This document shows positions 4,500-51,853 of a stretch of 64,000 bases of DNA, piece by piece. Under the pieces are notes generated by a model that was given only the letters and a program-made list of their open reading frames with translations, did not search any database and was not told the DNA's origin. The position numbers were made by a program, and so were the translations under genes. Position 1 is the first letter of the stretch; every line of letters starts with the position of its first letter. The stretch is from Chrysaora quinquecirrha (taxonomy: Eukaryota; Cnidaria; Scyphozoa; Semaeostomeae; Pelagiidae): the NCBI GenBank assembly GCA_014526335.1, contig JACTAT010000012.1, positions 2,339,024 to 2,403,023 of the forward strand, written 5' to 3'.

Positions 4500-4730
4500 G
4501 AATAGTGCGTTATTTTTCGAGGAATAAATTTATAGTAGGATGCAAAGCACACGCAATACTACCATAGGCGTCCTACTACCAATGACGTCATTAGTGATGT
4601 CATCATGTCGCGCTATAGTGTGACGGTTTAATCTAGCCAGATTGTTTCTCCAACCTCATTTTCAAGAGTTCTTTCAATCCTTGTCTGAAACCGCTAGCCT
4701 CGTTTCCGATTTAACAACCTTTACAATTGG
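4500..4730. promoter_or_regulatory. Family B terminal repeat with CRE sites and TATA box
   Basis: This block is the inverted copy of 25430-25600 and of 45915-46160. Shared parts, in reverse order, are the run ending in AAGAACTCTTGAAAA, GAGGTTGGAGAAAC, CACTATAGCGCGAC, and a CRE cluster. Directly visible sites are TGACGTCA at 4583-4590 and TGATGTCA at 4595-4602. TATAAAT lies on the minus strand at 4528-4534, ahead of the leftward gene at 4459. The outer part (4670-4725) includes a segment also found at 45915-45965. This is a terminal repeat serving as an inward-facing promoter; the exact outer end is not determined. Confidence 0.65.
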
Positions 4731-4853
4731 TTTGGCTTTTCCAGAAGAAGGGAAAGTCTCTATAAAAGAGATGATAAGAAACGTTAAGTTAATAGAATAA
4801 AATTGGTGCTCGTTCAAGTACAGCAGCTGCTTATTCGATGTTTGGCATAGACC

Positions 4854-5033
4854 ATGGAGCTGAAAAAGAAAAAAAAGCGTTTATTAAATGCTATGCGTAT
4901 AAAAGGAAAGAAAGCAAGTGTATTTCAAAATATAAGTGGTTTTGGTAAATGGAAAGGAATGTATAAAAATAGAAAAAGACCTAAGAAAAAAGTAACTAAT
5001 AAGAGAAAAAGATTTAGTAAAAGAAAACATTAA
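4854..5033 (+). CDS. Small highly basic protein (core/minor-capsid-like)
   Basis: A 59-residue rightward ORF beginning MELKKKKKRLLNAMRIKGKK and ending in a run of K/R with TKKRKRFSKRKH-like composition. A second copy lies inverted at 25887-26067. Nearly half of the residues are Lys or Arg, as in adenovirus-type DNA-binding core peptides. An overlapping frame that starts ATG-Gly-Ala-Gly-Ser in the other copy has lost its start here (ATG to ATT at about 4810). Function as a core protein is inference. Confidence 0.45.
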   Translation: MELKKKKKRLLNAMRIKGKKASVFQNISGFGKWKGMYKNRKRPKKKVTNKRKRFSKRKH

Positions 5034-5039
5034 GATTAT

Positions 5040-5304
5040 TTGGTTTGACTCTAGAAGTTTCCAGAATGTTCCAAAAAAAGAGAAAAGTCCCTAATAATCC
5101 TGCAATCTGATTAGCTAGAACTTTCTAGAAGTTTCCAGAAGTTTCCAGAACTTTCTAGAAGTTTCCAGAAGGTTCCAGAATGTTCTAGAAGATTCTAGAA
5201 ACCAGAAATCCTACAATCTGATTGGTTAATAATTCGAAAGTGACGTTCGAATCCTTTATGAAAATCGAGATGTAAAGCGAAATCAGTTCAGTTAGAAATT
5301 AATC
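5040..5304 (+). promoter_or_regulatory. Family A terminal repeat, truncated tandem copy, with HSE array
   Basis: Homologous to 6160-6395. GAA and TTC alternate every five bases without a break from 5118 to 5200 (17 units), the canonical heat-shock element. A shorter four-unit HSE lies at 5054-5071. An inverted CCAAT box (ATTGG) is at 5221-5225 and GTGACGTTCG follows near 5240. The gene at 5305 begins about 105 bases beyond the HSE array. This copy has no clear TATA box (CTTTATGAAAAT instead). Confidence 0.75.
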
Positions 5305-5979
5305 ATGAAGAGAAGTAGTCAAGAAGAGAGCTCAGTTGCTAATAAAAGTAAGCGAAGAAAAATCGCTTGCGATGTTTGTCAGAAACACTTTAGCTCAAGA
5401 ATCGAAATGAGATGCCACATGGTGTCTATACATTCAACTCCATCAATTATATTAACTTGTCAAATTATACATTGTGGAAAGTACTTACAACTACCTACAT
5501 ACATAAAAAACAAGCAAGCCATTCTCAATATATAGAACAGAGATGATAAATGCTTCATCTGGGCAATCCTATCCCGTCTACATCCACAATCAACACATGC
5601 AGAGAGAGCCGCACTGTATCGGCGATACTTACATGAACTCAACTGTGAAGGATTGACATATCCAGTAAATGCATCCGATAAAAAGATGATTGATACATTT
5701 GAAATAAACAACAACATTTCAATCAACATCTATGTGGATGAAGATGGTGAAATTGTACCAGTAAAAATAACTGAAGTTAAACGTGAAAAACATGTACATT
5801 TGCTATTCATATTCAATGACGATGGTGAGAGCCACTATTGCTGGATAAAGGACTTGAGTCGTCTTTTAGCAGGTCAGGATGGCCATAAACATCACGGAAA
5901 ACGTTTTATATGTCCTCTATGCTGTTCAGGGTGGAGAACTCAAGAAAGGTTGGAAAAGCACAAAAAGTTATGTAAATAA
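5305..5979 (+). pseudogene. Polymerase B N-terminal region, truncated tandem copy
   Basis: It starts MKRSSQEESS and has a C2H2 finger (CDVCQKHFSSRIEMRCHMVSIH). Then, after an internal deletion relative to the copy at 6396, it resumes at GGKYLQLPTYIKNK-like sequence. An in-frame TAG at 5533-5535 breaks the frame, and ISINIYVDEDGE...HYCWIKDLSRLL follows. A second finger (CPLCCSGW...KHKKLCK) ends at a stop where the full gene continues into the exonuclease domain. The sequence after 5980 does not match polymerase. It is a tandem end-duplication of a family A Polinton. Confidence 0.65.
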
Positions 5980-6159
5980 AAGACACGTTTAAATACTAAC
6001 ATTAGAATGTCTATAAATTGTTTTAAAGCTGTAAAAATTGTTGTAAGTTCTACAGAAATTGTTATAATTCAATTACTCAAGATTTAGAAGGGTTTAATTA
6101 CAAAGACTCCTCCTCCTCAGTGTCAGACTCGCAGCGCTAAAAATGACATAATAATCCTG

Positions 6160-6395
6160 TAATCTGGATAACTACAACTTTCTAGAAGTTTCCAGAACTT
6201 TCTAGAAGTTTCCAGAAGTTTCCAGAACTTTCTAGAAGTTTCCAGAAGTTTCCAGAATGTTCCAGAAGATTCTAGAAACGAGAAATCCTACAATCTGATT
6301 GGTTAATTATGATGGCGTAATAATTCAAACACGACGTTCGAATCAACTATATATATCAAAGCGTAAAGCAAAATCAGCTCAGTTAGAAATTAAGC
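6160..6395 (+). promoter_or_regulatory. Family A left terminal repeat: 20-unit HSE array, CCAAT, TATA
   Basis: From 6180 to 6277 TTC and GAA alternate every five bases for 20 units with no error, as ten TTC-NN-GAA pairs. ATTGG (inverted CCAAT) is at 6298-6302, CGACGTTCG at about 6332, and TATATATAT at 6348-6356. The polymerase ATG is at 6396. The order HSE, CCAAT, TATA, start is that of inducible metazoan hsp70 promoters. This is the strongest regulatory signal in the window. Confidence 0.85.
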
Positions 6396-9300
6396 ATGAA
6401 GAGGTCACACGAAGAAGAGAGCTCAGCTGCTAATAATAGTAAGCAAAGAAAAATCGCTTGCGATGTATGTGGGAAATTGTTTGACAGAATGTTAAGTCTC
6501 GCATCACATAAGCAAACAGCGCATGATATACATGCGTCAACAGCAGAACAAAATAAATTAGTCGGTGAAGGTAAGAACATGAACAAGATGGATAAGAAAG
6601 CATTTAGAATATATACCGAAGAAGATATCAAAAACTGGGCAAGAATCACACAACATACTATTCGAGAAATTAAAGAAGAATTGCCAGGCCACAAGCTGGG
6701 GATAAATTATTATATCACTATTGATGTAGAATTTAAAAAGTATGGTGATAAGCCTATGGTTACAGAACCACCACCCACATTCAGAACCACCGTACACGCG
6801 CTTCTGAGGTCAGAGTATGACTATGTTGAAGATCAGGTAGTTGAAGCTATCAACACACTACCAGACAAGGTTGATGAGTTCTTAGAGAATGGAAGCGGTT
6901 GGATATTTACAAAGTTTACCAAACTGCAAGTAAATATGTTTGATTATGATGCAATTCGCGGTGGAAAGTATTTGCAACTACCTACGTACATCAAAAACAA
7001 GAAGGCTGTTCTCAATGTACAGATCAGTGACGATAAATGTTTCATCTGGGCAATTCTATCCCGTCTACATCCACAATCAACACATGCAGAGAGAGCCGCA
7101 CCGTATCAACGATACTTGAATGAACTTAACTGTGAAGGATTGACATATCCAGTAAAAGCAACTGATAAAAAGATGATTGATACATTTGAAATAAACAACA
7201 ACATTTCAATCAACATCTATATGGATGAAGATGGTGAAATTGTGCCAGTAAGAATAACTGAAGTTAAACGTGAAAAGCATATGCATTTGCTATTAGTATT
7301 CAATGACGATGGTGAGAGTCACTATTGCTGGATAAAGGACTTGAGTCGTCTTTTTGCAGGTCGTGATGTTCACAAAAATCACGGAAAACGTTTTAACTGT
7401 CCTCTATGCTGTTCGGGATGTACAACTCAAGAAAGGTTGGAAAAGCATGAAAAGCTATGTCATACCCCTCAAGCTGTTGAATATCCCCAAGATACAGAAT
7501 TAAAGTTTGAACATTTCAAACATCAGAGCTGGCTACCATTTATCATCTATGCAGATACTGAATCTATTCTGGAAAGCTCAAACAGAAAAGCTGCTTATCA
7601 AGAACACAAGCATTGCATTTATGTCAAATCAATCGATGATAGATGGCAACAACCGTTGGAATGTTATACTGGTGAAGACTGCATGGAGGTGTTGATGAAT
7701 CGACTAGATGAATTGAATGAAGAAATCCGAGCAGTGTTCAAGAAAACCATGCCGATGATTAGATTAACACATCAAGAAAATGCAAGACATGATATGGCTA
7801 CACACTGCTATTGCTGTAAGCAGCTATTTGATGACAAGGGCAGAAAGAAAGTCAAAGATCATTGTTACATTACGGGGAAATACAGAGGACTGGCTTTCAA
7901 GTACTGCAACTTTAATCATCTGGATATAATAGCAAACACTCACACAATCCCGATCGTCTTCCATAATCTGAAAGGGTATGACATGCACCATGTTCTGAAG
8001 AATTTGAGAGGTAGAAATACAAAGATCATTGCCAATTCGAAAGAAAAGATCATGACTGCACAGATTGGTGCTCATACTGACGTGAATGAAGATGGGAAAG
8101 AAATATTCGTGGGATCAAATACATTGACTCCTTTGCATTTCTGAGTACAAGTTTAGCAAAACTAGCCGGCAACCTACCAAAAGAACAATCCGTCTCTGTC
8201 AAAGGCTACCTATATGATGAGATTACTCAACAACAGTATCCTGATGTACCGAGAAATGAAAAGGAAAGAGTTGCAGAATCGAAAAGAGAACGCCAAGGAA
8301 TGTTTGAACCTGCTGTAGCATGGGAAAACCCGCTAAAAGATGAAGATGTTCTAGATTATAGAAATTGGAAAATACCATCAAAGAGAGATTTGACAGATGC
8401 TGAAGCTGAAGAAGTTGAGAGAGCATTTGAGTTGCTGACAAGAAAAGGTATTTATCCCTACGATTGGGTGGATAGTGCAGAGAAAATGAAAGAAACATCT
8501 CTACCACCGAAAGAAGCATTTTACAACAAACTCAATGATTCTGACATCAGTGATGAAGATTATGAACATGCTCAACAGGTTTGGCAATTCTTCAACTGTC
8601 AGACTTTTCAAGATTATCATGAACTGTACACAAAAACTGGTGTGTTGCTGTTGACTGATATATTCGAATCGTTCAGAGCACAAAGTCTGGAATTCTACGG
8701 GCTTGATCCTGCACATTATCTAACTGCTCCTTCACTGGCCTGGGATGCAATGCTGAAGATGATCAGTGTGAAGCTAGAATTGTTATGCGAAGAAAAGAAG
8801 GACATTCTACTTATGATTGAAGATGGCATTCGTGGTGGTGTCTCGATAGCAGTGACACGGCATGCTAAATCAACAGAAAACAACACGCTGATGTATTTGG
8901 ATGCAAACAATCTCTATGGTTGGGCAATGTCGCAACCAATGCCGTATGGTGGTTTCAAGCAGTTTACACAAGAAGAAATCAGAAATACAGACATCCATGC
9001 TTTGCTGACAAGATCGAATGAAGATGTTGGTTATATTCTCAACGTTGATTTGGAATATCCAGCCGAGTTACACAATCATCATGCAGATCTACCATTGGCG
9101 CCGCAAAGATTGCAAGTTCAAGAAGACATGCTATCAGAACATCAAAAGAACGCTCACGAAGAACTTTTCAATGGAAAAAAGTTTAAGTCAACACCAAAGC
9201 TAATACCAAATCTATTCAACAAAGAAGAATACCTCATGCATGAAAGAAATTTGAAGCAGTGTTTGGAATTGGGTTTGAAGCTGACAAAAGTTCATGAAAT

Positions 9301-9880
9301 CATTGAATTCAAGCAAAGTCTATGGCTGAAAGAATACATTGATTTTAATACCCAGAAGAGAACACATGCAAGAAACGACTTTGAAAAAGATCTGTTCAAG
9401 TTGATGAACAATTCCATGTTTGGGAAGACGATGGAAAATGTTCCAAATCATGGAGATTTTGAAATCTCTACTGATGGGGAAGTCTTAAGAAATGGGTAAG
9501 AAATGGGTAACTTTTACGTAGTAATTGAAATCAATGAAGACACGCTTTTGGTTGAGAAAAAGAAGAGGAAAGTTACACTCAAGAAACTAATCTATATTGG
9601 TTTCAGCATATTGGATATTAGCAAAACATTGATGTATGATTTCCACTATAACTTTGCAAAGCCAAACCTTCCAAATGTTGAGCTATGCTACATGGATACT
9701 GATAGTTTCATCTACGACATACCAATGTCTAAAGATCAAGTCGATAAAGTATTGAAAGATCACAAAGATGGATTTGATTTCAGCAATTATGATAAAGAAC
9801 ATCCAAATTACTCTACATTCATAGTAGTTCGGCACCCTAGCAGCATCACATTAGAAATTATGAGCATTCTTCGTAATTAA
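6396..9880 (+). pseudogene. Protein-primed DNA polymerase B, family A Polinton
   Basis: Replicative polymerase of the element. The first block (582 codons) starts MKRSHEEESS, carries a C2H2 finger (CDVCGKLFDRMLSLASHKQTAH) and a second Cys/His cluster (CPLCCSGC...KHEKLCH). It then has the exonuclease region (PFIIYADTES, CYCCKQLF, HCYITGKYRGLA, FHNLKGYDMHHVL). A frameshift near 8100-8140 leads into KYIDSFAFL and the second block, with MYLDANNLYGWAMSQPMP (motif A) and MNNSMFGKTMEN (motif B). Another lesion lies at 9497-9503. The third block holds CYMDTDSFIY (motif C). The C-terminus after about 9835 is replaced by unrelated repeat sequence. Family assignment is secure; the copy is inactive. Confidence 0.88.
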
Positions 9881-10480
9881 AGGTTTGAAATTACAAAAAT
9901 TAGCGTAAGTGACAGAGAACATGATGCTTTTATCCTAAAAGTAACGCTACCACATCAAAAGAAAAATTTATGCACGAAACGGTTAAGACTCAAAATATCA
10001 GTTTCGGTTTTGATGACGTCACACAAATTTCGAATCATAATAACTTCTGAGTATTAAGCCAAATCGAATTGGTGTATAATTTTTTCCCCATTTGAGATGT
10101 TTTTTCCCGTCAATATCATTAAAAACACTAAATTCAAAAGTCAGATTTTCACTGACCGTAACTTTTCTACGTCATCGATGACGTCACAACCATTGATTTG
10201 CCAGAATGTTCCCAAGTCTTAAAATGACCACCCACCACCAAAGAGTCCAAACCTACTTCAAAATTCCGGTTACCCAGTTTGTTAGAATGTTGCGAAAAAT
10301 TCACTGTCAATATTTTTGATGATGTCGACCCCCTGGTTTTCTGACCCCCGTATTTCACGAACGCAGCAAAAAACGACCGTTACCAAATTTTTTTTGAAAG
10401 TCCATGTGAAATGCTATCAAAAATGACTATGACATTAATGACCTCCTAGAGTGGCACTTGACCCCACCTGAAGCCGGTCT
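9840..10480. repeat. Non-coding repeat-like segment replacing polymerase 3' end; two CRE sites
   Basis: No coding signal on either strand. The polymerase reading frame stops matching its family at about 9835. The block contains TGACGTCA at 10014-10021 and again at 10179-10186, the latter within CTACGTCATCGATGACGTCA. It appears to be an inserted dispersed repeat or MITE, but I could not find its other copies or its borders. Confidence 0.4.
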
Positions 10481-10482
10481 AT

Positions 10483-10615
10483 TGATTGAACTGTTTTAAT
10501 GAACTATTTTAACATTATTCTAAACTAAACTGTTGTAACAATATTCTAAACTAAACTGTTGTAACATTATTCTAAACTATTGTAACAAACTGTTTTAACA
10601 AACTTCAATTATATC
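10483..10615. repeat. AT-rich tandem repeat between convergent genes
   Basis: Copies of CTAAACTGTTGTAACATTAT recur every 25-40 bases between the 3' ends of the rightward polymerase region and the leftward protease. The position suggests a shared terminator or polyadenylation region, but I see no defined signal. Confidence 0.5.
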
Positions 10616-10862
10616 TTCGTTTAACATAGTTGTAAACAAATAAATCGTTATCTAACTTGTTCTGAATGTTGAAATATTTATTAACCATTGAGGTCATTGA
10701 AACGTTTTTTGTTCTATTAATTAGAAAGAATATGCAATGTTGTCCACATGTAGCAGTCTCATACGATTGAACTTGAACCTTGTTATAAGCGAGCTTGAAG
10801 GGACTAATAAAGTCTAGAAATTCTTTCAACATAGGTTCACCAAACGAATCATAGAAATCCAA
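10605..10862 (-). pseudogene. Polinton cysteine protease (adenain/Ulp1-like), C-terminal part
   Basis: Begins MDFYDSFGEP, matching the YDSFG segment that follows the catalytic His in adenain-type maturation proteases, and contains QSYETATCGQHCIFFL with the catalytic Cys in TCGQHC. The N-terminal part with the catalytic His is absent: the upstream capsid gene ends only 20 bases away (10883), so a deletion has removed it. Polinton proteases are thought to process capsid proteins. Length 85 residues against roughly 150-200 for an intact enzyme. It cannot be active as encoded. Confidence 0.75.
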
Positions 10863-10882
10863 TACTTATACAATACTTATTC

Positions 10883-12075
10883 TCAGATTACCCTCTCTTT
10901 TAAGCAAATATTGCTCATCTGCACAGTTTCCTTTGGTGTCAAATCAAACCCATAGATTGCCGATCCTTGTTTGAATCTATCGTAATCAATTAGGCTAGGT
11001 GAATTATTCAAGCTGGTCACCAAGCGACTGTAGGCATCAAAGTAATCATCATCATCATAATTCAGTCTTAGAGGTGGGGTAATTTCTTGATTGTCAACAG
11101 TCACTTGAACAGCGGAAACAGAAACATGTTCAAACTCAAACGGATATCCTTCATCCGCTCCATTGAATGATGAATTATCAACCAGCGCAAAAAACAATCT
11201 GTTTGGAATCTTTCCGTTGAACACATTATCTTGAACCCAGCTGGTTGTTGCGGCATTGATTAAGTAGCTTGCCATGTGAGGTTGGCAGACTGGGTAAATT
11301 GCGTTAGTTTTCATCAGCGTTCTTTCAATTCCTTCAATACATCATCTTTAACATGTATGTGACGAAGCACCAGTTTCACTTCGGAAATGTAGAAGTGTGA
11401 AGTGTTTCCAGTCTTCCTCATCAAACAAAACACATCACTGTTTGGACTCAATCGCCATTGAAGACGAACACCAGGCAGCAAGTATTTGCTTTGATTGCAA
11501 ATGTTAACATGAGGTTTTTTCAACACTTTAACCTTTTCACTATCATCAAATGGTGCAGATCTTGCATTTAAACCCAGATTTTTTAACCTTGCGGTTGTTG
11601 GAAAACCAACATTTTCTTTGCCAATCGTATCACTGACCCAGTTTGTCATTTTCAAATAGTTTTTAGCTCTGGTTTCATCAAACGTCAGAATTGTTTCCAA
11701 GTAAGATTGACAGGCATACATTCAATTTGCTTCTGTGACGGGAGTGTCATTCAAAACCAACTCTATCTGCTTCCACATGGATTGACCAATATTATTTATT
11801 ACTCCAGCAAATTCTGTGGTGGTTTTTCCAATATCACTTCCATCGGCTCTTTTAATAGCTAGAGTCGAGACGAAATAAGAATGATTCAAGTCAATCATAT
11901 GATCAGGCTGAGCAGGAATGTCAAACACAACAGTTTGTTTTGAGGCATTGAGAGCAGCAGTTTGTGGAAAATATTCAACATCTTTAAAATACTTGACATC
12001 GTTTTGAATTACTGGTGAGCAGAATAAATCCAAACTTTCACTAGGACGTTCAGTATATTCTGGCTTTATGCTCAT
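10883..12075 (-). pseudogene. Polinton major capsid-like protein (F54H12.2-like)
   Basis: About 397 residues in three blocks. Block 1 (12075-11722) has SLDLFCSPV, FDIPAQPDHMIDLNHSYF and NNIGQSMWKQIELVLND, the hallmark of the invertebrate F54H12.2-like family that corresponds to the Polinton double-jelly-roll capsid protein. An in-frame TGA (11722-11724) separates it from block 2 (YLETILTFDE, NPDS-like loop, HFYISEVKLVLRHIHV). A one-base shift near 11316-11330 leads to block 3 (NAIYPVCQPHM, PNRLFFALVDN, GFDLTPKE). The order of motifs is that of a complete protein. It lies between protease and penton genes, as usual in these elements. Confidence 0.78.
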
Positions 12076-13019
12076 TGTTGCAAATTCTTCTTCAACAGTT
12101 TCTTCAACAAAGTTTTTCTCAAATCAGGTTGCTTAGCTTTCTTAGCTTGTCCTTTCTTCACCGACTGCTTAGGTATGAATATCCCTCTCATGGTGCTTTC
12201 TTTTATAGATCTTTTAGGACGAACTCTTGATTTCTTACCAGCATTCGATTTCTTACCAGCAGACGATTTCTTACCAGCAGGCGATTTCTTGACAGATTTC
12301 TTCACAACATCGGCGATTTCTTCAGTAGCCTTCCTTTTAATTCCTCTCATAGAAGATTTGGCAGTATCTTTTACAACTTCTCCAACATTCTCACCAGCTA
12401 ATATCCGATCGACTGCCTTCTCTCCTTCTTCTTCTAAAACAGGTTTCAAAATTTTCCCCGCAGCTTTTACACCTTGTTTCTTTATTGTTGGAATTGCAGC
12501 TTTAACAGCTCTTTTGAAAATAGATCCAGCTTTCCTGACAATACTACCTACTTCTCTTCCACGCTGGTAGGTGTAAAAATACGGAGTTGACTTGTAAATT
12601 GGGAAATCACACATGTTTCCTTCTAAAGTGTAGCAAGAATGTTGTCTTTGTTTTGTAGCATTGTATCTCTTTCCCAACTCGTTGTAGACTTTTATAGTAA
12701 ATTCCTTGATATCGTTGTATAACAATGGATAGTAGAACAAATTTTCAAATTCCCCAAAATTTACAACTTGCTTCTTAATTTTCAACGGAATGAAGCGTAG
12801 CAGTGGCGTGCTAATTTTTCCAACTACACGATAGTCTAACAACGAGCAATATATAAACATATTCTTCCGTGCTGCATTGACTTGGAAATGTTCATAACCC
12901 ATCACATCAGTCGCTCTTTTGATTGCGTTGAATACATAATCTGTTAATGGTTTGTCTAGATAAGTTCCAGTAAATAGACAGGGTGTCCATCTCACATCTC
13001 TGTAATAAACATTATTCAT
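12072..13019 (-). CDS. Penton-like minor capsid fused to pVI/pX-like basic tail
   Basis: An uninterrupted 315-codon leftward ORF. Residues about 45-135 (MFIYCSLLDYRVVGKISTPL and the following LLRFIP, YYPLLYNDIKEF, YTLEG) match the single-jelly-roll Polinton penton-like protein C-terminus. Residues about 145-190 (YTYQRGREVGSIVRKAGSIF, then GVKAAGKILKP) match the separate pVI/pX-like protein found next to it. The tail has three KSxAGKK repeats and many lysines (residues 243-315). It overlaps the capsid start by four bases. The N-terminal half of the penton is missing, so a deletion may have made this fusion. A bare short upstream region contains the Harbinger insertion. Confidence 0.68.
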   Translation of the reverse strand: MNNVYYRDVRWTPCLFTGTYLDKPLTDYVFNAIKRATDVMGYEHFQVNAARKNMFIYCSLLDYRVVGKISTPLLRFIPLKIKKQVVNFGEFENLFYYPLLYNDIKEFTIKVYNELGKRYNATKQRQHSCYTLEGNMCDFPIYKSTPYFYTYQRGREVGSIVRKAGSIFKRAVKAAIPTIKKQGVKAAGKILKPVLEEEGEKAVDRILAGENVGEVVKDTAKSSMRGIKRKATEEIADVVKKSVKKSPAGKKSSAGKKSNAGKKSRVRPKRSIKESTMRGIFIPKQSVKKGQAKKAKQPDLRKTLLKKLLKKNLQQ

Positions 13020-13063
13020 GCTTTTATTATATTATTTTTCCATGTAAATGTAATTGTTCTTTA

Positions 13064-13275
13064 GACCCCGTTTACACGGGATCCTGGATCCGAACCCAAA
13101 AGTATTCGGATAGGCCTTGCGTTTACACGGGACCTGATGGATCCGTATACTTTTGGATCCACTATCCGCATACTTTCAGGATCGCTTTCAAAAGCGATCC
13201 AGCACAGTTCTGATCCCATGGAGGTCTCGTGTAAACGGGCTGGATCGGATCCAAAAGTATCCGGATAGGAAACGA
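13064..13275. repeat. Harbinger left terminal and subterminal repeats
   Basis: GTTTACACG occurs at 13069, 13111 and, in inverted form, 13222. GGATCC and AAAAGTAT(T/C)CGGAT motifs recur at least five times. The right end (16915-17023) has matching inverted copies. Such clusters are the probable transposase or Myb-protein binding sites of Harbinger elements; that role is inference from the family. Confidence 0.7.
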
Positions 13276-13412
13276 GGCGGGAAATTATCGAATACGAGGC
13301 GGCAACAACAGGATGTGTTGGCTTGGCGCCAAAAAATGTAATTTGCTTTCTTCTTTCATTAGTCTTGTCGTGGCTAGGGTTTGGTTCTCTTCATATTCAA
13401 AAATAGTTAACT

Positions 13413-14682
13413 ATGGATCCAACGCGAAAGCTTAAGCTTTTAAGCACAATGTTGTTCTTTGTCTCCATGTGTAATTGTTGGGTCAGGATGGCTTGGTTTT
13501 TCTTTACGCAGCACAGATTGCCACAGCGACAGTTGCTTTTTAGAATTCTTGCTCTCGACTCTGTGACAGGCCTAAATCCAGTGCTGTTGACCAGGAGCTT
13601 TTTTGGAAGGAAAGATCGTACACCAAGGAGATTTTGGACTAGGCGAGGAAGAACCAGCGCGTGGTGGAAAAGCTTTGAAAACCAAACTGTCATTCCAGAA
13701 GAATGGATTGAGAACTTTAGAATGACACGCAATAGTTTCTACAAACTTTGTGATGAGCTTCGACCAATGCTGACAAAAACTAGGACAAACATGCGCGAGC
13801 CCTTATCTGTTGAAAAACAGCTTGCAGTGACCCTTTATTACCTCGCAGACGAAGGAAGGTACAGGAAACTGTTTCAGTAGTTATAAGAAGAGTTTGTCTG
13901 GTTATTACAAGAGAATTGGGCCCAAAATACATAAAGCTGCCAGATACAGCCAAGGAGGTAGAAGAACTAGCTGCCAATTTTTATAAGTCATTTTGTTTCC
14001 CTCAATGTATTGGTGCAATTGATGGAACTCATATACATATCAGGCAGCCGCAACGAAACCCAACTGATTTTTGAACCGAAAACATAGGTACTCTATAAAT
14101 GTTCAAGCTATGTGTGATTACAACTACTGTTTCAGAGATGTTGTTATTAAATGGCCAGGGTGTGTGCATGATGCCCGAATTTTCACAAACTCAAAGTTAA
14201 ATTTGATGTTAAAAAATGGTGACATTCCACGTTGTTCAAAAGGAATCGTAGAAGGTTTACGAAGTGTCCCCGTATGTATTCTTGGTGATCCAGCCTATCC
14301 CTTGCTGCCTTATGTCATGAAAGAATATCCTGGAGGGGGTAGCAATATTGAGGAGAAGTTCTTTAGCCATCGCCTTTCATCTGCCCGGATGGTTATTGAA
14401 TGCTCATTTGGAAGGCTCAAGGGGAGGTTTGGAGCACTTAGAAGAGAGATGGATAGTTGCCAAAAAGATTTGCCAAGTGCCATCTACAGTTGCTTTGTTC
14501 TTCACAACTTTTGTGAGAAGGAGAAGGAAAGACTAAACGATGATGCAGTAAAAATTGGCTTACAATATGATGCTGAATTTCATCCAGCTACTGTTGGTTT
14601 CACTTCAGGTAATCGTTCAGCAGGGGAAGCCGAAGGAAAGAGAAACAGAGACATATTCAAGTCATATTTCAACAATTGCTAG
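13413..14682 (+). pseudogene. Harbinger DDE transposase (DDE_Tnp_4)
   Basis: Block 1 (13413-13880) has the N-terminal region WFENQ-like, NFRMTRNSFYKLCDELRPML and LAVTLYYLADEGRYRK. A small deletion with frameshift near 13870 removes the helix-turn-helix centre. Block 2 contains QCIGAIDGTHIHI (first catalytic Asp). A missing T in a run at about 14067-14071 shifts the frame again. Block 3 (14071-14682) contains [33 protein letters not shown] (second Asp) and [15 protein letters not shown] (catalytic Glu), ending near the family's usual C-terminus. All three DDE residues survive, but two frameshifts disable it. Confidence 0.88.
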
Positions 14683-15210
14683 CAATATGGACCTTTGATG
14701 TATTTTCTTCACTTACGTTAAACTAAAATATATTAACTTTTGTTGTCATTGCTGATATTTAATAACCTGTGTTTCTTTAGTCATCTGCAGCATCTGTTTT
14801 TAGATATTATTTATGGGTTTAGTTGTGATAAAAATGTGTGGAAAGACTTTTTGAAACCTTCAAGTTATGATTGCTACTTTTCAAATAAAAGCATAATATA
14901 TACACAGTATGTTCACTTTAAATTGCACTGTAAAAACTGTTCATGATAAAAAGTTTCCAGTGGCTTTTCAAAGTTCTGTATATGTTTGTGCCAAATCATT
15001 TGAAACAAAGTTCCTTTGCGGTTGGAAATTTTCATGCTGTAGATTATTACCATAATAGGGCTCATTTTGTCTTTGTGGATTCCCAGCATAGACATACTGC
15101 TGAAGTGGGCTTGCTCTTCCATCTTGCCTCAACATTGAAATCATCATCAAAAATCCCTCAGACATGGTTCTTGCCATCATGGCTGAAAAATCTTGCATTG
15201 ATTTTTGAAA

Positions 15211-16730
15211 CTATTGTTCTGAAGATCTGAATTGATCAACAAGGTTCTTTTTGAGTTCCAGATCTTCCTTCCTCGTTGTAGAATCTTCATGGCAAATCTG
15301 TAATATCTTTTCTTGGAAAGGAACCTGTTTATTAGATTTGCTGTTCCTTCTTTCATTTAGAAGCTTCTCGAGATTTTCTCTTTCCACTCTCATTTTTTTC
15401 TTTGCTGGCTCAACTAGAGCCCCTGCGCCCTGAGTCGCCACCTTGAAGCGAAACATAAAATAATTCGCGTAGCGAAATAAATTTGACAAAGAAACTTACG
15501 ATAAGGATATTCTCCAATGCATAATAACCTTTAGTATCAAATTTAAGATATAGTTTGTGAGTGAATCATGTCAAAATTTTATCCCAAAGACGTTGCACTC
15601 AAAACGGCCTAAATTCTTTCGATGCACCATGAGTCTACACCAATGGCGAAAGGGGCAAAATCACTTGTGCTCCACCGCAGAGGAACGATTACTCTGCGAA
15701 AAAACGCGGCAGTTGGCCTGAATCACGTTTGCGTGGTAGGGTGTCGACTCAAGGTACACTTTTGTAAACCCGACTGGGCCTTGAAAAAAGTTCAGTTTTA
15801 CAATGGTTACTCAAAATAACAACTGATGCTGTTGAAATTATCAAAGCAGAGGAATGTAACAACTTATCCAAGAAGAAAATTTAATGTACAGTCAACCAAA
15901 TCAAAAGATTTTCACGAAAGGAAAAGTGTTTGAAAAAATAAATTTGGAAAATGGCAGACAACTTACCGTAACTTTCCGGTGGGTTTCAAAAAACTTGTTT
16001 TATAGCAAAAAATGTACAGTTTTCCACGAAAAAAATAATAAAATTGTAAAAACATGGTAAGAAGTAACTATTTTTTTTCATTTTTTAATTCAACTTTCCT
16101 AAACAAAGAGGGATTTGAAGCGGAATCAAAGTACATAAACTTTTTCCAAATTATTGCTGGTGGCGACTCAGGGCGCAGGGGCTCTAGGTCAGTTTTTTGT
16201 TCTGCTGATGCTGGCTGTTGCTGGTTCTTGCTGGTCTTTTTGTTTTGTTCAGAGGGACAAGGAGAGGGTGTGGATGAACTCAGACCTGCATATGTGTCTT
16301 CGTCATCAATAGAAGATACATCCTGCTCTATGGTAGTAGTTTCAAGTCCATCTACTAAGCGTTCCGCAGCTGGGCAGCCTGCCCAAACTTCACAGCATTC
16401 GTCATACAGGGCGAAAACCACTCGGCCTCATCCACTTTTTCTTCCAGAATCTACTGCCTTGCGAAAGCTGGTTTTTATTTTCTTAAGTTTCGCTGTTAAT
16501 CTGTCTTTTGAAAACTCCTCCTTGTTTTTTGAATTAGGGAATGCCTCTGTTTCCTCTTCATTCGGATAGGACGCCAAGAATTTTGCCCTGATGTCTTCGT
16601 ACTTGGATCTGACTGTCTCCCAGTCCAGGCCGTCTGCCATCTTCGAAGTTTTATAATCTATAACAACCTTCATCAACAATGCAGTTTCCTCATCGGTCCA
16701 CACGAACAGAGTTTTCTTCGTTTCAGACAT
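15211..16730 (-). pseudogene. Harbinger Myb/SANT-like DNA-binding protein, split by a MITE
   Basis: Starts MSETKKTLFVWTDEETALLM, a trihelix/Myb-like domain (residues about 8-100) that recruits the Harbinger transposase to DNA and to the nucleus. An in-frame TGA at 16428-16430 is followed by VVFALYDECCEVW. The coding frame is then cut at CTAG 16184-16187 by a 770-bp insert and resumes at 15413 with EPAKKKMRVERENLEKLL, a coiled-coil-like C-terminus ending 15211. The two sides are in frame if one CTAG is kept, so the insert is later than the gene. Partner gene: transposase at 13413. Confidence 0.8.
15414..16187. mobile_element. MITE-like insert in the Harbinger Myb gene
   Basis: The ends are perfect 25-base or longer inverted repeats: AGCCCCTGCGCCCTGAGTCG...CCACC begins at 15418 and its complement ends at 16183. 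CTAG is present at both borders, giving a CTAG (or TA) target duplication. The interior (15440-16160) has no convincing gene. Removing it restores the frame of the interrupted gene. The border resembles that of the element at 561-2678 (also CTAG), although the inverted repeats differ. The superfamily is not assigned. Confidence 0.82.
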
Positions 16731-17084
16731 TTTTGTAAGATAATCTTGTGTTAAAGGTGATAAATTTGAGCAAAATGGAACTCAGTTTCGTAAACTCGAC
16801 TCACTGGCCTAACCACAACACAAAGAAAGAAATAATTTTGGCGCCCAAAGAATGCTCGTTCCAAACATACGCATGCGTTCGTATCTCACTTCTCAACGAT
16901 CCCAAGTCAAGAACCGTTCCCGTGTAAACGCGGACAATTTTGGATCCGATTCAGTGTAAACACCTGGGATCGGATCCAAAAGTATCCGGATACTTTTGGG
17001 TCCGTTCTCGTGTAAACGGGGTCTTAAGTTTTATTGCCGAATCCGAGTCGTTGGTACATGTAAGATAAAAGTCATTAATCATCT

Positions 17085-18311
17085 TTGCTGAAAAAACAAG
17101 TCAATTTGACAATTTTCTTCAAATTTATCGGATATATCTTCCAACGTTTCCCAGTTGATGATTCTAATATCAAATGATTTTATATCAGATCTTGTTACTT
17201 TATACGATGCAGGATTTATAGTTGATCTATGAATCAATTTCGAATCGTCAATAACTAGACCTAATAGAGGAACAGCATCCTTACTTATAATGATTACACT
17301 TTTTCATTCTCATCTTTTTCTTTTCGATATAGCGTACAAGCAATCATGCTACATTTCCAACTGGTATCCACTGGAAGTGGATTAACAAAATTTACATGTC
17401 TATTATTTAAAGTTACATTCATATTACCGGTTAGTAATGTTTCTCCGATATAATGCTTTGCGGAATAGAGAGATGTTAATTTTATAGGATTCCCATCATC
17501 ATCTACCAATCTTATTGGAATTTGTTGAAACTGCAACCTCTCCAGTGTGTGAAAATTATATTCTTTGGAGAATAATATCTAACATATGCATCGAGATCTG
17601 TATCGTAAAATGTTAGTTTTCTCAAAACTCGCCTTTTCTCAATACCACCAAGATAGTTACTTTCTTATAGGTCGAATTCTATATTTATAGATGTATGTTC
17701 ATTTAGATGAACACTGTCCTTTATACTACTCAAACAGTTGATCTTTCCTCCGGTTACACATCTCCATCTGCCCTCTTCTTATATACAATCAGATACATAG
17801 CCTGGTGAGGTTGTATGCTGTCAGAAGTCTTGTAGTCAAAGTATGTTAATGTTGAACCATTTCGCAAAGTGTGGTTCATTTGATCTTCCAAACCGAGGAA
17901 ATGAGACAAAGGTCTTGAAAATTTCATGAGAACTGCACTGATAAATTTCAGTCACTTTCCTTGATATGTTGAATATCCCAATGATTTCAAAATCTTCCAT
18001 TTCAAACTATATCTTTCCATCAATCAATGATACTGATAACATGTTTTTCAGCTCATAACCAAACTCAGGGAAATTCAATACCCTGTCATTGAAAAGTCTT
18101 TTGAATTCATAATACATGAGAGTATTATCGCGTGTTTCAATAATTTCTTTATCAAGATAGATTTTTTCATTAAAAAATCATTTATACTCCAATCAAGCAA
18201 TTTTCCCTCTTCATCCGTGACTGTTACATACTCATTTGCTATTGAAAACCAATATTGATCTTGCAGTGATTTTTCTCCTCTATCCGGCAACGTCATTTGT
18301 AACAATGACAT
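17085..18311 (-). pseudogene. Degenerate family A Polinton gene(s), unknown
   Basis: Leftward coding pieces at 18311-18006 (starting MSLLQMTLPDRGEKSLQDQY) and 18006-17085 lie between the integrase and the Harbinger insert. The second region includes IPIRLVDDDGNPIKLTSLYS, LLTGNMNV, and a further open piece ending SFDIRIINWETLEDI. Each piece is cut by frameshifts and stops. The stretch may include the missing N-terminal half of the penton-like gene, since the next intact gene downstream begins in its middle; this is inference. No domain recognised. Confidence 0.4.
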
Positions 18312-18335
18312 TTCCCACTTTCTCTTATTGTTTAA

Positions 18336-19478
18336 TTAAAATACATGAGGTAAATCAACTGTGAAATCTACTAATTTCATTCTATTGGTAGCAAACGCCG
18401 AAGGAAGAACCAAATCAAATTCTTCATCAATCATATTGTCTCCAATTGGTTTTCCAGTCATCAAATTGTGGAGGATAACCTCTCCATCTGATAAGATAGA
18501 AGTTTTTGCCCCTCTTCTTCTTAGTTTCAACACTTGCTCGACAACAAATGTTTTTGGAAGATACACACGCTGTAGCTCTTCTTTATAGAAATGATCAACT
18601 ATCTTGTTACCTTGTAGATCTTCAATTTCATACATTACTGGATATCTTTCTGTAAAGACTTTACTGATCTTGAATATTTCTTCAGTGTAATTTTGCAAGT
18701 AACCTTTCTTAAACATTCTCTTCTTCAAACTCAATCTTACATAATCTCCAGTTTTGAAAAGCTTTTTATTTTTTCTGGTTTCTTTTTTGAACAGTCTTTT
18801 TCAAACAGTGTCGACATTGTCTTGGTTGACTTCAGAAGGTCTCATACCAATAGATCTGTGATATGTATTATTGCATGAGTTGACAAAATCTTGCAAATTA
18901 TCCATGTATCTCAACGTATTTCGTGCTGTAAAGCATCTATACATTCGTTCTATTAATGTTCTGTTAAATCGTTCAACAATTGCTGCCTTTACTTCATTAT
19001 TTGCAGTGTAAAATCCAATATCGTTTTTCTTCAACAAAGCTTGGAATTCTTTGTTTATAAACTCGCTGCCTTTGTCCGATCCTACCTTTTTAGGTTTTCT
19101 TTCGGATAAAATTTCTTTAAAAGCATTGACAATTTCTTTTGCAGCTTTTCTTTTTAGAGGTTTGACCCACACATACTTGCTAAAAGTATCAATACAGCAT
19201 AAGAGGAATGTAATGTTGTCATTTTCTTTTTTCAAATGTGCCATATCAACAAGATCACATTCCCATAAATAATCAATGTTATTGGTTAGTATCCGCTCCC
19301 GTTTAAAGTTCTTCCTACTTGGTTTGTGCAGTGAATAGGCAAGACTAGTTTTACTCCATTCTTCAACATCTTTCCTTTTCAAATTAGGAATTACTTTTTT
19401 GAATTCTTTATACACTTCATCCAAACCCCTGAGAGAACCCGGAACAGAAGGATCAGAATATAACTTTTCTAAACTCAT
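18336..19478 (-). pseudogene. Polinton retroviral-type integrase, family A
   Basis: Catalyses insertion of the linear element. Starts MSLEKLYSDPSVPGSLRGLD. The catalytic core shows WECDLVDM (first Asp), KVGSDKGSEFINKEF (second Asp) and AIVERFNRTLIERM (Glu), a complete D,D-35-E set. An in-frame TGA at 18801-18803 interrupts it after NQDNVDTV. The same frame continues into the chromodomain-like C-terminal region (GDYVRLSLKKRMFKKGY, EIFKISKVF, YEIEDLQG). Length about 380 residues, near the family norm. A single stop is the only break, so this is one of the least decayed genes of the element. Confidence 0.88.
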
Positions 19479-19509
19479 AATAAATCAATTAACAGTTCTA
19501 ACAATTTAA

Positions 19510-20327
19510 CAGTTGTACACTTTTTTCTTTCTTTTCTTGCACTTTCTTCCTTTATTTATGATCTTTTTAGGCTTTTTCTTCACTGGTTCATTGTCAGGTT
19601 TGCTTGGCTCCATGACTATCTTTTCAAATGAACCATTTTTACTGTCTTACAGAATGGTTGATCTCTATTTATATCCTTTTTTAGACTTGTACACCACTAA
19701 AGGAGCTTCATTAGGGAAAATATTAGTGCGAAATCTCATATCTTCTCCAATCGATTGTGTGAAATCACAAAGTAAGTAGCCCTACATTCTTGCTGTTGCA
19801 TCATTGTAAATGTCAAGGAATGCTTTTGGAGATGAGGGCATAATTTGTCGCGCAAAAAATCTAATTTGACTTCTATCTCAAGGATTCTTGAAAAGAACTT
19901 GATACTAAGTATTGAGAGCTAAATTTCTCATTTCTGTTCCTCTTGGAAAAGGGTTTTGCATCATAACAATTACATTGATGTTTAGATGAGATCTTCCTTT
20001 TGTGAACAATTTTCCCAAATCTTTAAAGTTGGCAATTTCATGCATTAAATCATCAACAACAATAGTTAATCTTTTGTCCCATCTTTCGATTTCTTCGTAC
20101 AAGTTTTCAGGTAGCTCAGTAATAAATCTACAATTCCCGTTAAAAACTCAAACAATTCCGGTTTATTTGTTCCCGAGATCCACATAAGATTGGGATATTG
20201 TCTGCCATTATCAATTATATTGTTATAATTTTTCAACAGATTTTCCACCCATGTCGCTTCCGCTTACTCCAGATAAAATCAAAGAAAAAGGTGCTTTAAA
20301 TCTCAAATCGTAACTCATATTTATAAC
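19510..20327 (-). pseudogene. Polinton packaging ATPase (FtsK/HerA-type), family A
   Basis: Starts MSYDLRFKAPFSLILSGVSG, leading into the Walker A loop, where a few bases are lost so the G-K-T part is missing and the frame shifts (about 20250). Then NGRQYPNLMWISGTNKP, Walker B TIVVDDLMHE, NVIVMMQNPFPRG, and VLFKNP interrupted by TAG and TGA. The C-terminal part (ARQIMPSSPKAFLDIYNDAT, GYLL) follows. The family motor packages element DNA into capsids. Multiple lesions make it a pseudogene; identity is clear from motif order. Confidence 0.82.
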
Positions 20328-20334
20328 AAATTTT

Positions 20335-20515
20335 AAACATCTCATACAACAGGTAACATCTATTTATAACAAATTCTTAACATGTAGCTATAACATCAAA
20401 CTAATATCTATAACATCGAACTAAAATCTATAACATCGAACAAATATATATAACATCAAACTAATAGACATAAAATCTAATTTTGAACATCTCATGAATA
20501 ACAGCTGTATAACAA
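20335..20515. repeat. About 20-bp tandem repeat between ATPase and next gene
   Basis: ATAACATCAAACTAATATCT recurs with small changes at about 20390, 20410, 20430 and 20450, with weaker copies on either side (ATAACA...TTTTAAACATCTCAT). It fills the intergenic space of the Polinton. Similar short arrays sit between other Polinton genes here (10483-10615). Confidence 0.6.
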
Positions 20516-20523
20516 CGTTCAGT

Positions 20524-20880
20524 CTAGGCAAATGACATGATTACAATGTTTATTATTCTGCTCAATACTTGCAGCAGATACATCAATGAGAAGAGACTTG
20601 GATGAGATAATTCATCATGCAGATTTTCAACTCTGGATTTGATTGTTTGATTCATTAGACCATTCTTCTTCTTCAGCTCATCAAACATTGATTTCTTAAA
20701 CGATTCTTTCCCTTCAGCCAGCATTTTGGAGTTGACATAACTAATGTGAAATGATAGAAATCTGAAAGCATTATGTACCATACAATCTTGTTTATGATCA
20801 GCAGCATCAATTTGTTTTGCCCACATCTCTGTAGTTGCACATTTTTCACAATACTCTTTTGCTTTGTTGAAAATATATTT
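20524..20880 (-). CDS. Family A Polinton protein, unknown
   Basis: A leftward open frame of at least 100 codons beginning at an internal ATG (MWAKQIDAADHKQDC), predicted mostly helical, with HDELSHPSLFSLMYLLQVLS near its end. The frame is open a little upstream of that ATG, so the true start may be further right, in the 3' end of the next gene. No recognised domain. It follows the gene at 20895 directly and could be its C-terminal part after a frameshift. Confidence 0.4.
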   Translation of the reverse strand, partial: KYIFNKAKEYCEKCATTEMWAKQIDAADHKQDCMVHNAFRFLSFHISYVNSKMLAEGKESFKKSMFDELKKKNGLMNQTIKSRVENLHDELSHPSLFSLMYLLQVLSRIINIVIMSFA

Positions 20881-20894
20881 CAGGACAATTTCAG

Positions 20895-21539
20895 CTAAGA
20901 TTCTTGCACTAGAACATCAATCTTTGTTGTATCTTCTTCTTCTTGTTTCTTTTTCTTCTTTTGAATCTGCTCATCATCACTCGCTGGTCTTTTCCGGGAT
21001 GGTTGTGGAAGCATTTTCAGATCAGCAAGCTTTCCATATAATGCTTTCAGCATTTCTTCTTTCAGATTTATTCCCGTCTTTGATGGCTTCTGATTCTTCC
21101 ATCTTCGGATTCCAAGACAGAGTTGTAGAGGGAAATCACCATTTTTCTGCAGATAGATTTCAATCTTATCCTCATATGCTTCTTCTTTACTCAAGACTTC
21201 AGTGTATAGTGCTAGAAACTTTGTGATCCTGCCAAAGAACTTCTTTGATTGGATATGTGCTTTGTTCTTCTCAAACACACTTTCAGCATCTTCTCTGCGG
21301 AACTGGAATTGATTGTTTATGTTTTTATCAACTATTTCCAAGAGACGAGACAGTGCTGCATGACAAATAGCCATTGACCTTACAGATGCACCTTTTAGGT
21401 ATCTTTCAGCAGAGCCATTGTATCTTGCAACTGCTGCTGTATCTTTCAACACTAACAACCATTTGTTAGAACCAGACTGGACAGCAAATGATGACTTGAT
21501 TAGGCCCTCTTCATCTCTAACTTCGTAAATTGCAGCCAT
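20895..21539 (-). CDS. First gene inside the right terminal repeat, unknown function
   Basis: An intact 214-codon leftward ORF starting MAAIYEVRDEEGLIKSSFAV. The first ~130 residues include FEKNKAHIQSKKFFGRITKF, and the C-terminus is a lysine-rich low-complexity stretch (SRKRPASDDEQIQKKKKKQE) resembling a nuclear localisation signal. It starts 78 bases downstream of TATAAAAT in the right terminal repeat and so would be driven by the HSE promoter at 21681-21718. It is uninterrupted while most neighbours are broken. No homology recognised. Confidence 0.6.
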   Translation of the reverse strand: MAAIYEVRDEEGLIKSSFAVQSGSNKWLLVLKDTAAVARYNGSAERYLKGASVRSMAICHAALSRLLEIVDKNINNQFQFRREDAESVFEKNKAHIQSKKFFGRITKFLALYTEVLSKEEAYEDKIEIYLQKNGDFPLQLCLGIRRWKNQKPSKTGINLKEEMLKALYGKLADLKMLPQPSRKRPASDDEQIQKKKKKQEEEDTTKIDVLVQES

Positions 21540-21544
21540 GACTC

Positions 21545-21745
21545 TTCAGTGATTTTTTTAAGCTCCGCACTCTACGACGACTTGTTACAACTGAACTGAT
21601 TTGGATTTGTGCATCGATTTTATAGATTGATCGAACGTGACGTCCGAATTATTAACCAATCAGATTGCAGGATTTCTCGTTTCTAGAATCTTGTGGAACT
21701 TTCTGGAAACTTCTAGAAAGTTGTAGCCAATCAGATCACTACATC
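21545..21745 (-). promoter_or_regulatory. Family A right terminal repeat with HSE array, CCAAT, TATA
   Basis: Inverted copy of 6160-6395. TTC/GAA alternate at five-base spacing from 21681 to 21718 (eight units, one mismatched as TTG). CCAAT is at 21656-21660, GTGACGTCCG near 21640, and TATAAAAT reads leftward at 21617-21624, ahead of the gene starting at 21539. The same promoter order as in the left repeat is therefore present at both ends, facing inward. Confidence 0.8.
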
Positions 21746-21775
21746 AGTTTTTAGTAACGTGAAAACCGGCTTAGC

Positions 21776-22060
21776 AAATTTTTCTCTTCTTTCGTCTACG
21801 TTTTCTGGTTGTTTTTCTACCATCACTAAGTCGCTTTCTTCTCACACCACCACCAGCTAATTTCCTTAAACCAGTCTCAACACCTTAAACAGCTGCAGCT
21901 ATGGCACCGCCTTTTGCAGCCCCTTTTGCGCCTTTAAATGCGAATTTTTTACGGCTTGTTTGCTAATATTTCTAGTCACTGCTCTTCCTCCTTGCTTAAT
22001 TGCTTGTCTAACGGCTTCTCGTGCTAATGCGGACTAACAGTCTGCATTATGTTGTCTCGA
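21776..22060 (-). pseudogene. pVI/pX-like basic capsid protein relic
   Basis: Leftward pieces ALAREAVRQAIKQGGRAVTR, then after a frameshift FKGAKGAAKGGAIAAA, a stop, and GVRRKRLSDGRKTTRKRRRK. They align in layout with the intact ORF at 26147-26398 (ARSAAKVALRQGTKAAAKQL ... RKRYKNRKSRNKKRKYRKKR). It lies just outside the right terminal repeat of the family A element and belongs to a separate Polinton remnant. Confidence 0.55.
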
Positions 22061-23140
22061 GACGAATCTAATTATAAACTGAAAACTTTTCATTAAAGCT
22101 CATAAACTGACTCCACTGTTTAGCAGTGAATTATTACGAAAGTCAGAAAATGAAACAAATTATGCAGGCATGATGTACTTGCTTTGAAATGTTGATGATC
22201 TTCACAACAGAGAACAGAAGAATGCTAAAGTAAGCATAATTGGCATTGTTATTTGATGGACTGCGAAATTGAATAAGGAGCAACCAAGCGGAATGCCAAG
22301 TTCTACAGTTCTCTACACAGTTCTCCCCACAGTTCTCCATCTTCAAATGTAAATATTTCCTCGTTGTTTGAAAGACTGCACTTGTAACTTTGTAATTCTG
22401 TATTATTTCATGTCTACTTTAGATTTTCAACAGAGTTCGACTGCCAATGCATGGCAAAGTATATTTCTCACAGTTCTCCACCTGTTTTCAAAGATAGGTT
22501 TTCACCAGCTGTATTGTTTACTTACTACAGAGAGTGGAGAACTGTCAGAAAACGAACTCAGAAGGAATGACAAAAAGGAAAATTATTTTATAACATGAAA
22601 TACCCCCAGGAAATGTATTGTCGGATAGGGAGAAGTATGGGAAAATTATTTGGACTTGAGTTATTCCACTTTTATGCGGTAGAAAATGATGGAGAACTGT
22701 CAGTTTCTTAGATGTCAAGCTCTCTCCTCTGCAGCGGCAGACGCATCGTTTGAATTGTGGTCTACAGAACGGTTCTAAAGATGCATTTGAATGATAAAGG
22801 TATTGCTTCTGCAGCTGAAAAATGTGTACCGTTGCCTCTTATGATTTTGCGATGTTGGAAAGTGAATTACGGCCTTTTTCAAAGGATTCCTTAACTTTTC
22901 AATGAATTTTCACATTATGCAAAATTTTGGCCCTGACCCCCCATAGCCCCCCAAAATATAAAGTCATTCCTCCTATTTACAATAAACATCACTCGAGCCT
23001 TTTGAGTCTTCCCATTCTTGAGAAAAACACAATTTTAGATTTCTGCTCTTGCTCAGACAATCCTCGTCAAAAATATTGGGGACAGTATGTTATAAGTATG
23101 TTTTACCTTAAAAACCCCGTCCAATTACAACATATTTGGG
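22061..23140. other. Non-coding stretch with short inverted ACAGTTCTCCATC copies
   Basis: No supported gene. ACAGTTCTCC occurs repeatedly at 22305-22340 and 22480, and its complement GGAGAACTGTC at 22540 and 22690. The pair ACAGTTCTCCATC (about 22331) and GATGGAGAACTGTC (about 22688) could bound a small MITE of about 370 bp; no duplication was confirmed. Confidence 0.3.
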
Positions 23141-23147
23141 TAATAAG

Positions 23148-23224
23148 ACCCCCCTCCCCCCTGACTCAATGTTGGGACCACTGTCAACATCGATTTCACC
23201 AACATTGAGTCGGGGGGAGGGGGT
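23148..23224. repeat. Long GC-rich hairpin with G-run stem
   Basis: The left arm (A-C6-T-C6-TGACTCAATGTTGG, 23148-23175) pairs with the right arm (CCAACATTGAGTCGGGGGGAGGGGGT region, 23199-23224) with one extra base and one extra C, leaving a loop of about 23 bases. The G-rich arm could form a G-quadruplex in single-stranded form. The stem contains TGACTCA, an AP-1 consensus, at 23162-23168. Confidence 0.65.
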
Positions 23225-23281
23225 ATGCGTCTTTAGAGCGAGAATTTTACAAAAGTTCAAAGTGTCCCAGCCTTTTTGGCG

Positions 23282-23525: not shown

Positions 23526-23659
23526 TTTCAGAAAGTCATTCGATGACGATGCGTCACGTGATGAGGATTGCATCACAGGAAAATTTAAAATTGGCGGCAC
23601 GTCAGCAAAGGTAAACAATCTTGGAAAATTTCTTGGAATTTTGGTAAGTACCTTTCACT

Positions 23660-24551: not shown

Positions 24552-24606
24552 TCCTTTGGAGGAGCTAAAAGAACATTTAACAATATTAATAAATTAATAT
24601 TGTTAA

Positions 24607-25405: not shown

Positions 25406-25424
25406 TTATTATTTAACATCTGTG

Positions 25425-51850: not shown

Positions 51851-51853
51851 TGG

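Follow-up and report, generated by a model that had tools for sequence, protein, structure and literature searches.

Why should a transposon of a jellyfish carry a perfect array of heat-shock elements (HSEs) in front of its DNA polymerase gene? The question arises in the window, the 64,000-nucleotide stretch of Chrysaora quinquecirrha DNA that was analysed here, in which a first-pass annotation had read 20 alternating TTC/GAA units at 6180-6277. That reading proved exact: where three or more contiguous inverted nGAAn pentamers define an HSE array, this one has 20 perfect half-sites. Further perfect runs occur in the window at 5054-5071 (4 half-sites), 21696-21718 (5) and 45892-45914 (5), in addition to the 17 half-sites listed in Table 1. 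First-order Markov simulations of the window, 100 in all, gave a longest run of 3 half-sites in 78 cases, 2 in 20 and 4 in 2, and a six-half-site pattern allowing up to two mismatches matched the window 19 times against 0.01 expected. The array is followed by ATTGG, a TATA box, TCAGTT, which we take to be initiator-like, and then the ATG of pPolB. This is the succession of CCAAT, TATA and polymerase start that had been described, and the claim that the array belongs to an hsp70-like promoter ahead of pPolB is supported, the array-CCAAT-TATA architecture being presumably that of hsp70.

The carrier had been called a Polinton, and we agree: a 6-bp target site duplication (TSD), AG...CT termini, terminal inverted repeats (TIRs), pPolB and a retroviral-type integrase were all found (Table 1). 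The left edge AGTAGG also stands at the start of homology in 10 other genomic copies, which were chosen because their homology starts at that edge, and of the 30 polB loci 14 have AGTAGG(A/T)TG upstream in the sequence searched. Judging by the PF03175 match on the middle piece of the gene, the element encodes a B DNA polymerase of the protein-primed type; the window copy is broken into two frames and by an in-frame stop. At a threshold of E 0.001, the integrase open reading frame (ORF) matched 14 PDB sequences; most of them bear the name integrase, and the best value was 3.4e-5. Candidates for a packaging ATPase, a cysteine protease and a capsid protein were picked by eye (ORFs 19905-20147, 10605-10865 and 10883-12123), with no Pfam match above the cut-off. 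Measured from the mapped ends, the array starts 1.65 kb inside the left end, and 1.5 kb separate it from the strict TIR. A location inside the strict TIR is thus rejected for the window element, the array being subterminal to the 143-bp repeat; the annotation's phrase "terminal repeat" holds only loosely, in that the right side of the element has an inverted and diverged version of the promoter module.

Table 1. Features of the Polinton insertion and of a related fragment, in window coordinates
Feature	Coordinates	Strand	Details
Left TSD	4528..4533	.	ATTTAT
Polinton insertion	4534..25573	.	21,040 bp; AGTAGG...CTTACT ends and 6-bp TSD; later insertions inside
Left strict TIR	4534..4676	+	143 bp, 91.6%; TGACGTCA site at 4583-4590
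HSE array	5118..5200	+	17 perfect half-sites, ahead of partial second polB 5' end
Partial duplicate of polB 5' region	5305..5979	+	Diverged, truncated; start by eye
HSE array	6180..6277	+	20 perfect alternating TTC/GAA half-sites
ATTGG	6298..6302	+	Inverted CCAAT box
TATA box	6348..6355	+	
TCAGTT	6379..6384	+	Presumed initiator-like
pPolB, N-terminal open frame	6396..8144	+	ATG at 6396; C2H2-like motif by eye; no Pfam match
pPolB, next frame	8090..9499	+	DNA_pol_B_2 PF03175, E 9.4e-21
pPolB, C-terminal piece	9500..9880	+	Beyond in-frame stop; assigned by position and eye; no Pfam match
Integrase	18801..19484	-	rve PF00665, E 1.5e-11
First ORF of right-hand, oppositely directed gene block	20898..21539	-	No Pfam match
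Right promoter module	21589..21726	-	HSE 21681-21718 (7 of 8 half-sites perfect); ATTGG 21656-21660; TATAAA 21619-21624; TCAGTTCAGTT about 21589-21599
Right strict TIR	25431..25573	-	TGACGTCA site at 25517-25524
Right TSD	25574..25579	.	ATTTAT
Related left-end fragment outside element	45829..46055	-	Outer segment with TGACGTCA; HSE (5 perfect half-sites, 45892-45914); decayed CCAAT region

Other features of the window were recorded alongside. Transposase ORFs, presumably PIF/Harbinger, lie within the Polinton at 13407-14682, with a DDE_Tnp_4 match on 14068-14682. An inverted repeat of 92.5% identity has one arm inside the left end (4745-5037) and the other just beyond the right end (25883-26176), and contains a short lysine/arginine-rich reading frame (by eye). 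Also inside the Polinton, a 120-bp tandem repeat (23296-23533) carries three-half-site HSE-like runs and several CCAAT boxes and lies upstream of a small ORF (24216-24551) that gave no Pfam match. The window has 6 TGACGTCA sites, which we assume to be of CRE/ATF type, against 0.48 expected; four stand in terminal segments (4583-4590, 25517-25524, 46036-46043 and 46150-46157) and two, at 10014 and 10179, do not. The left-end fragment at 45829-46055 adjoins what appears by eye to be a second, different Polinton-like block with minus-strand ORFs (46400-52603), among them an integrase-like ORF (51854-52603) whose rve match (E 0.0018) is below Pfam's cut-off. Satellites of 149 and 160 bp occupy 36542-43589, the 160-bp one in two similar arrays. 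Similar DNA was not found in phage records, and a scan for bacterial promoters and terminators returned nothing.

The promoter module recurs within the element. At 5.1 kb it precedes the truncated polB start, and another locus (L035) matches the window at 95% identity over 1.4 kb, array and truncated start (5118-5979) included; because the same arrangement is found there, we regard it as a feature of a sublineage. Comparison of the window's two polB 5' ends gives a dS of 0.283 and a dN/dS of 0.23 (codons of 6961-7460; point estimates, with one stop codon in the shorter copy omitted), which suggests that the lineages were kept under protein selection. On the right side, the module is a diverged inverted copy (77% identity to the 6.2-kb module and 82% to the 5.1-kb module) whose spacing is nearly the same as in the polB promoter, though it stands before another gene. 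The predicted structure of that gene's product was uninformative (pLDDT 38.6). When the four window modules are aligned, a common plan is seen: HSE array, AGAAATCCT(A/G)CAATCTGATTG(G/A), an AT-rich stretch, a TATA box or its decayed form, and TCAGTTCAGTT or its decayed form, with a CTGATT- or CTGGAT-like box ahead of the arrays at 5.1, 6.2 and 21.7 kb. Four right ends (that of the window and those of L019, L023 and L026) all have ATTGG at -121/-120 and TCAGT at -60/-59 from the ORF start, together with perfect runs of 4-10 half-sites between -299 and -142; TATAAA is at -85/-84 in three and missing from L023. On contig C2, two sites that lie 18 kb from each other have modules matching at 88% over 214 bases; from their position, the sites were taken as both ends of one copy.

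We then asked how far this arrangement extends through the genome (327,998,173 bases in 740 contigs). A 28-base HSE pattern gave 747 matches per strand and its reversed control none; the pattern is palindromic and its matches overlap. A search with the N-terminal frame of polB gave at least 79 matches, a lower bound since 75 of 782 candidates were scored. Thirty polB loci were examined, the window's own (L034) included, and in 29 of them a perfect run of at least 4 half-sites lies within 300 bases before the ATG, making the array a family-wide feature among the loci examined. The one locus without an array is L053, whose homology to the others starts at about -69 to -64. The remaining signals hold nearly fixed positions: ATTGG is at -87 in 20 of 30 loci and between -98 and -83 in 27 (not in L043, L053 or L062), TATA occupies -47 in 24 loci and falls in the range -49 to -46 in 29 (L052 is the exception), and TCAGT lies between -22 and -17 in every one. 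The 29 promoters contain 1-5 half-site runs each, of 4 to 20 half-sites. Runs of 4-9 are usual, and only L034, L035 and L061 have longer ones (13, 17 or 20); the exceptional length in the window therefore appears as the expansion of a normal part, and 20 units are an outlier, not the family rule.

Could the array be a general satellite with no link to Polintons? Of the 747 matches on the plus strand, 50 from four contigs were listed and grouped by eye into 21 clusters, 19 of which were examined. Seventeen carry promoter modules or the outer segment of the window-type Polinton family, and on C2 polB or the right-hand ORF was also found at 7 of 11 examined clusters. A general satellite does not fit these 17 sites, and since they carry family segments, we conclude that most of the arrays sampled here belong to Polintons or their derivatives. 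The other two clusters are both ends of L064 (G000:C91:910700-919000), an element built differently: its inverted repeats measure 2.65 kb (97%), a satellite lies in its interior, and each arm has an ORF that looks, by eye, zinc-finger-like. Its half-site runs number 11 and 16 in the left arm and 12, 5 and 11 in the right, and 252 of its bases resemble part of L065 at 80%. Two pairs of sites 7-8 kb apart on C91 and C46 (L066/L067 and L068/L069) have the outer segment and HSE clusters facing inward at both ends, and L065 on C91 has a mirror-image match set 6.5 kb away; all three are probably smaller derivatives with an HSE promoter at both ends. Outside this genome, an exact eight-half-site pattern matched a single contig of the viral_contigs collection, a GC-rich one (0.62) in which the match lies in overlapping reading frames. 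A six-half-site pattern matched 18 contigs of the same collection; when stretches of these were compared by tblastn with five protein pieces of the window Polinton, no match fell below E 0.12, and two peptide-pattern scans of viral contigs confirmed no polB relatives.

To compare half-sites with the bases between them, 20 of the 30 copies were used, namely those that match L037 over positions -100 to -1 with no gap and at a level of at least 75%; the remaining 10 were left out, and selection was on this register alone, to avoid choosing by the array. Mean pairwise difference was 0.018 in 27 half-site columns versus 0.209 in 16 interleaved spacer columns, with 4 of 27 and 9 of 16 columns variable, respectively. 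In the same copies it was 0.000 in ATTGG, 0.014 in TATA and 0.000 in TCAGT, with 0.029, 0.081 and 0.063 in the stretches between, and 0.476 just upstream of the array (-175 to -151). The polB gene gave 0.065 at fourfold sites, counting only codons whose first two bases are identical in all copies, and 0.028 at second codon positions. When column labels were permuted at random, 47 of 100,000 trials gave a contrast as strong as the real one. The contrast is inverted if the mask is moved by 2 or 3 bases, and all but vanishes if it is moved by 1 or 4. With 17 distinct promoters and 13 distinct arrays among them, the 20 copies cannot be counted as independent. A gapped alignment of 29 copies (L053 omitted) gave 0.050 for half-sites versus 0.240 for spacers. 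In 18 of the 20 copies the seventh half-site (-120) is broken and reads CAA for GAA.

Comparisons were also made inside the window. Within the array at 6180-6277, 0 of 60 half-site bases vary versus 9 of 38 spacer bases (p 1e-4; TRF detected periods of 10 and 30, and the variants may be non-independent owing to the 30-base period). Between the 5.1- and 6.2-kb modules, changes affect 0 of 48 half-site, 2 of 35 spacer and 14 of 110 downstream bases, and the absence of half-site changes stands against 23.5 of 99.8 synonymous sites changed in the polB 5' ends (p 4.7e-5, rounded counts). Core versus spacer inside this pair alone was not significant (p 0.17), nor was core versus rest in 5 of the 6 module pairs of the window. 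Because the core value falls below that of second codon positions and the arrays occupy a promoter position, the low half-site variation points to selection for binding of heat-shock factor (HSF). With a value of 0.209 the spacers exceed fourfold sites (0.065), and this suggests turnover of entire units by gain, loss or exchange; such turnover, if units share their core, may by itself add to the core/spacer contrast, so that the two are not fully separated. With this caveat standing, a satellite origin of the array was judged unlikely, from the contrast and from the promoter position.

What, then, is the array for? We consider, with a probability of about 0.76, that HSF binds the array as part of a compact promoter of hsp70 type, which would serve pPolB and, inverted, the right-hand gene block. 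From the promoter anatomy, the arrays at 29 of 30 loci and the low half-site variation, we infer selection, HSF binding, heat induction and an effect on mobility. Host HSF trimers would bind the HSE clusters cooperatively, NF-Y would bind the ATTGG boxes (both factors being our assumption), and the initiation complex would form at TATA and TCAGT, which follow the array at a distance of about 60-130 bases. Under proteotoxic stress, or whenever HSF is active, transcription of both gene blocks would then rise, and this in turn could increase the chance of replication, transposition or particle formation. A wider proposal is that the whole Polinton lineage consists of stress-inducible proviruses, in which stress would act through HSF on both blocks and lead to replication, transposition or particles, like a temperate phage after damage. 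We put this forward tentatively and would sooner bet against it than for it.

The strongest rival concerns the trigger. HSF may read the array where it is active in the germ line, the embryo or infected cells, so that development or the element's own infection stress, and not heat, would time the element, a reading that overlaps with the hsp70-type promoter in everything else. HSFs have developmental roles, such as that of HSF5 in male meiosis, and a heritable element would profit most from germ-line expression. The present data do not separate this trigger from heat induction; long regular clusters would nevertheless fit strong inducible binding, to go by a study of plant elements (PMC5059998), and we hold the developmental trigger to be rather unlikely. 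Alternatively, the array could be bound by a protein of the element itself, such as pPolB through its C2H2-like N-terminus, and serve replication, packaging or autorepression. Repeats near element ends can serve as replication signals, and zinc-finger-like proteins do seem, by eye, to be encoded by these elements; the array, however, matches the five-base alternation of the HSF pattern, keeps promoter distance from TATA at both gene blocks and lies outside the 143-bp TIR, where the origin of protein-primed replication is expected, all of which makes such a role improbable.

A captured host hsp promoter is a further candidate, with the arrays now acting chiefly as dispersed enhancers of host stress genes. 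The presumed hsp70-like architecture would agree with capture. So would the HSEs of Caenorhabditis elegans Helitrons, which HSF-1 binds (PMC6927752). At 29 of the 30 polB loci examined, however, the arrays have kept their place next to the gene of the element itself, and we give dispersed enhancers little credence. Finally, a neutral 10-base tandem repeat, grown by slippage and unit exchange and HSE-like by chance, would account for the two TRF periods, the spread of run lengths with its 20-unit outlier and spacers that vary more than fourfold sites, as unit turnover predicts, but it is very improbable given that variation is nearly confined to spacers, both within the array and among copies, and that arrays keep promoter distance from TATA and TCAGT before two different genes.

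An hsp70-type promoter of this kind would matter since, to our knowledge, what switches Polintons on is an open question; according to a 2021 paper, Maverick particles had yet to be seen (PMC8097293). Shared by the family, it would offer a direct and cheap condition to apply to living animals, namely raised temperature. If the reading is true, environmental warming would be tied to the activity of elements that rank among the largest DNA transposons, and strong candidate HSF sites would be scattered across the host genome. In a sea anemone at low pH, one transcript annotated Polinton-2_PH is tabulated among up-regulated elements (fold change 5.95), and hsp70 was also up (PMC6505742); the joint rise is suggestive only. 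The literature searched, which comprised sources other than subscription journals, yielded no description of HSEs in Polintons.

The nearest parallels lie in other systems, and in its logic the Polinton promoter is akin to ONSEN, C. elegans Helitrons and DIRS-1. Animal hsp70 and hsp90 promoters have HSE clusters, a CCAAT box, TATA and the start, in that order; unlike them, the promoter described here would drive a transposon polymerase, and its arrays are longer and repeated. Helitrons are rolling-circle elements. Those of Caenorhabditis are, like Polintons, animal DNA transposons with HSEs: tandem overlapping HSEs are bound by HSF-1 and the Rep-helicase mRNA is heat-induced (PMC6927752). Binding was measured there, whereas the Polinton HSEs are predicted from sequence. 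Zuker and colleagues are said to have described, in 1984, a heat-shock promoter in the terminal region of DIRS-1 of Dictyostelium. There the promoter is within the inverted terminal repeat, whereas in the window Polinton it is internal to the strict TIR. DIRS-1 is, moreover, a tyrosine-recombinase retrotransposon (PMC3266345). The Qp promoter of Epstein-Barr virus is a case of a viral HSE placing a viral replication gene under HSF1 (PMC9157408); there an HSE lies in a herpesvirus promoter, in contrast to the family-wide array of Polintons. A further parallel is offered by ONSEN/COPIA78 and other heat-responsive Brassicaceae COPIA elements, in which at least four adjacent nGAAn motifs go with strong heat activation and four-motif sites with an up to thousand-fold heat response in ONSEN and TERESTRA (PMC5059998). 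As in ONSEN/COPIA78, clusters of HSF-type sites lie in the Polinton's own promoter. Those elements are plant LTR retrotransposons whose LTRs hold clusters of at most about six motifs, whereas the Polinton is a virus-like DNA transposon with runs of 4-20.
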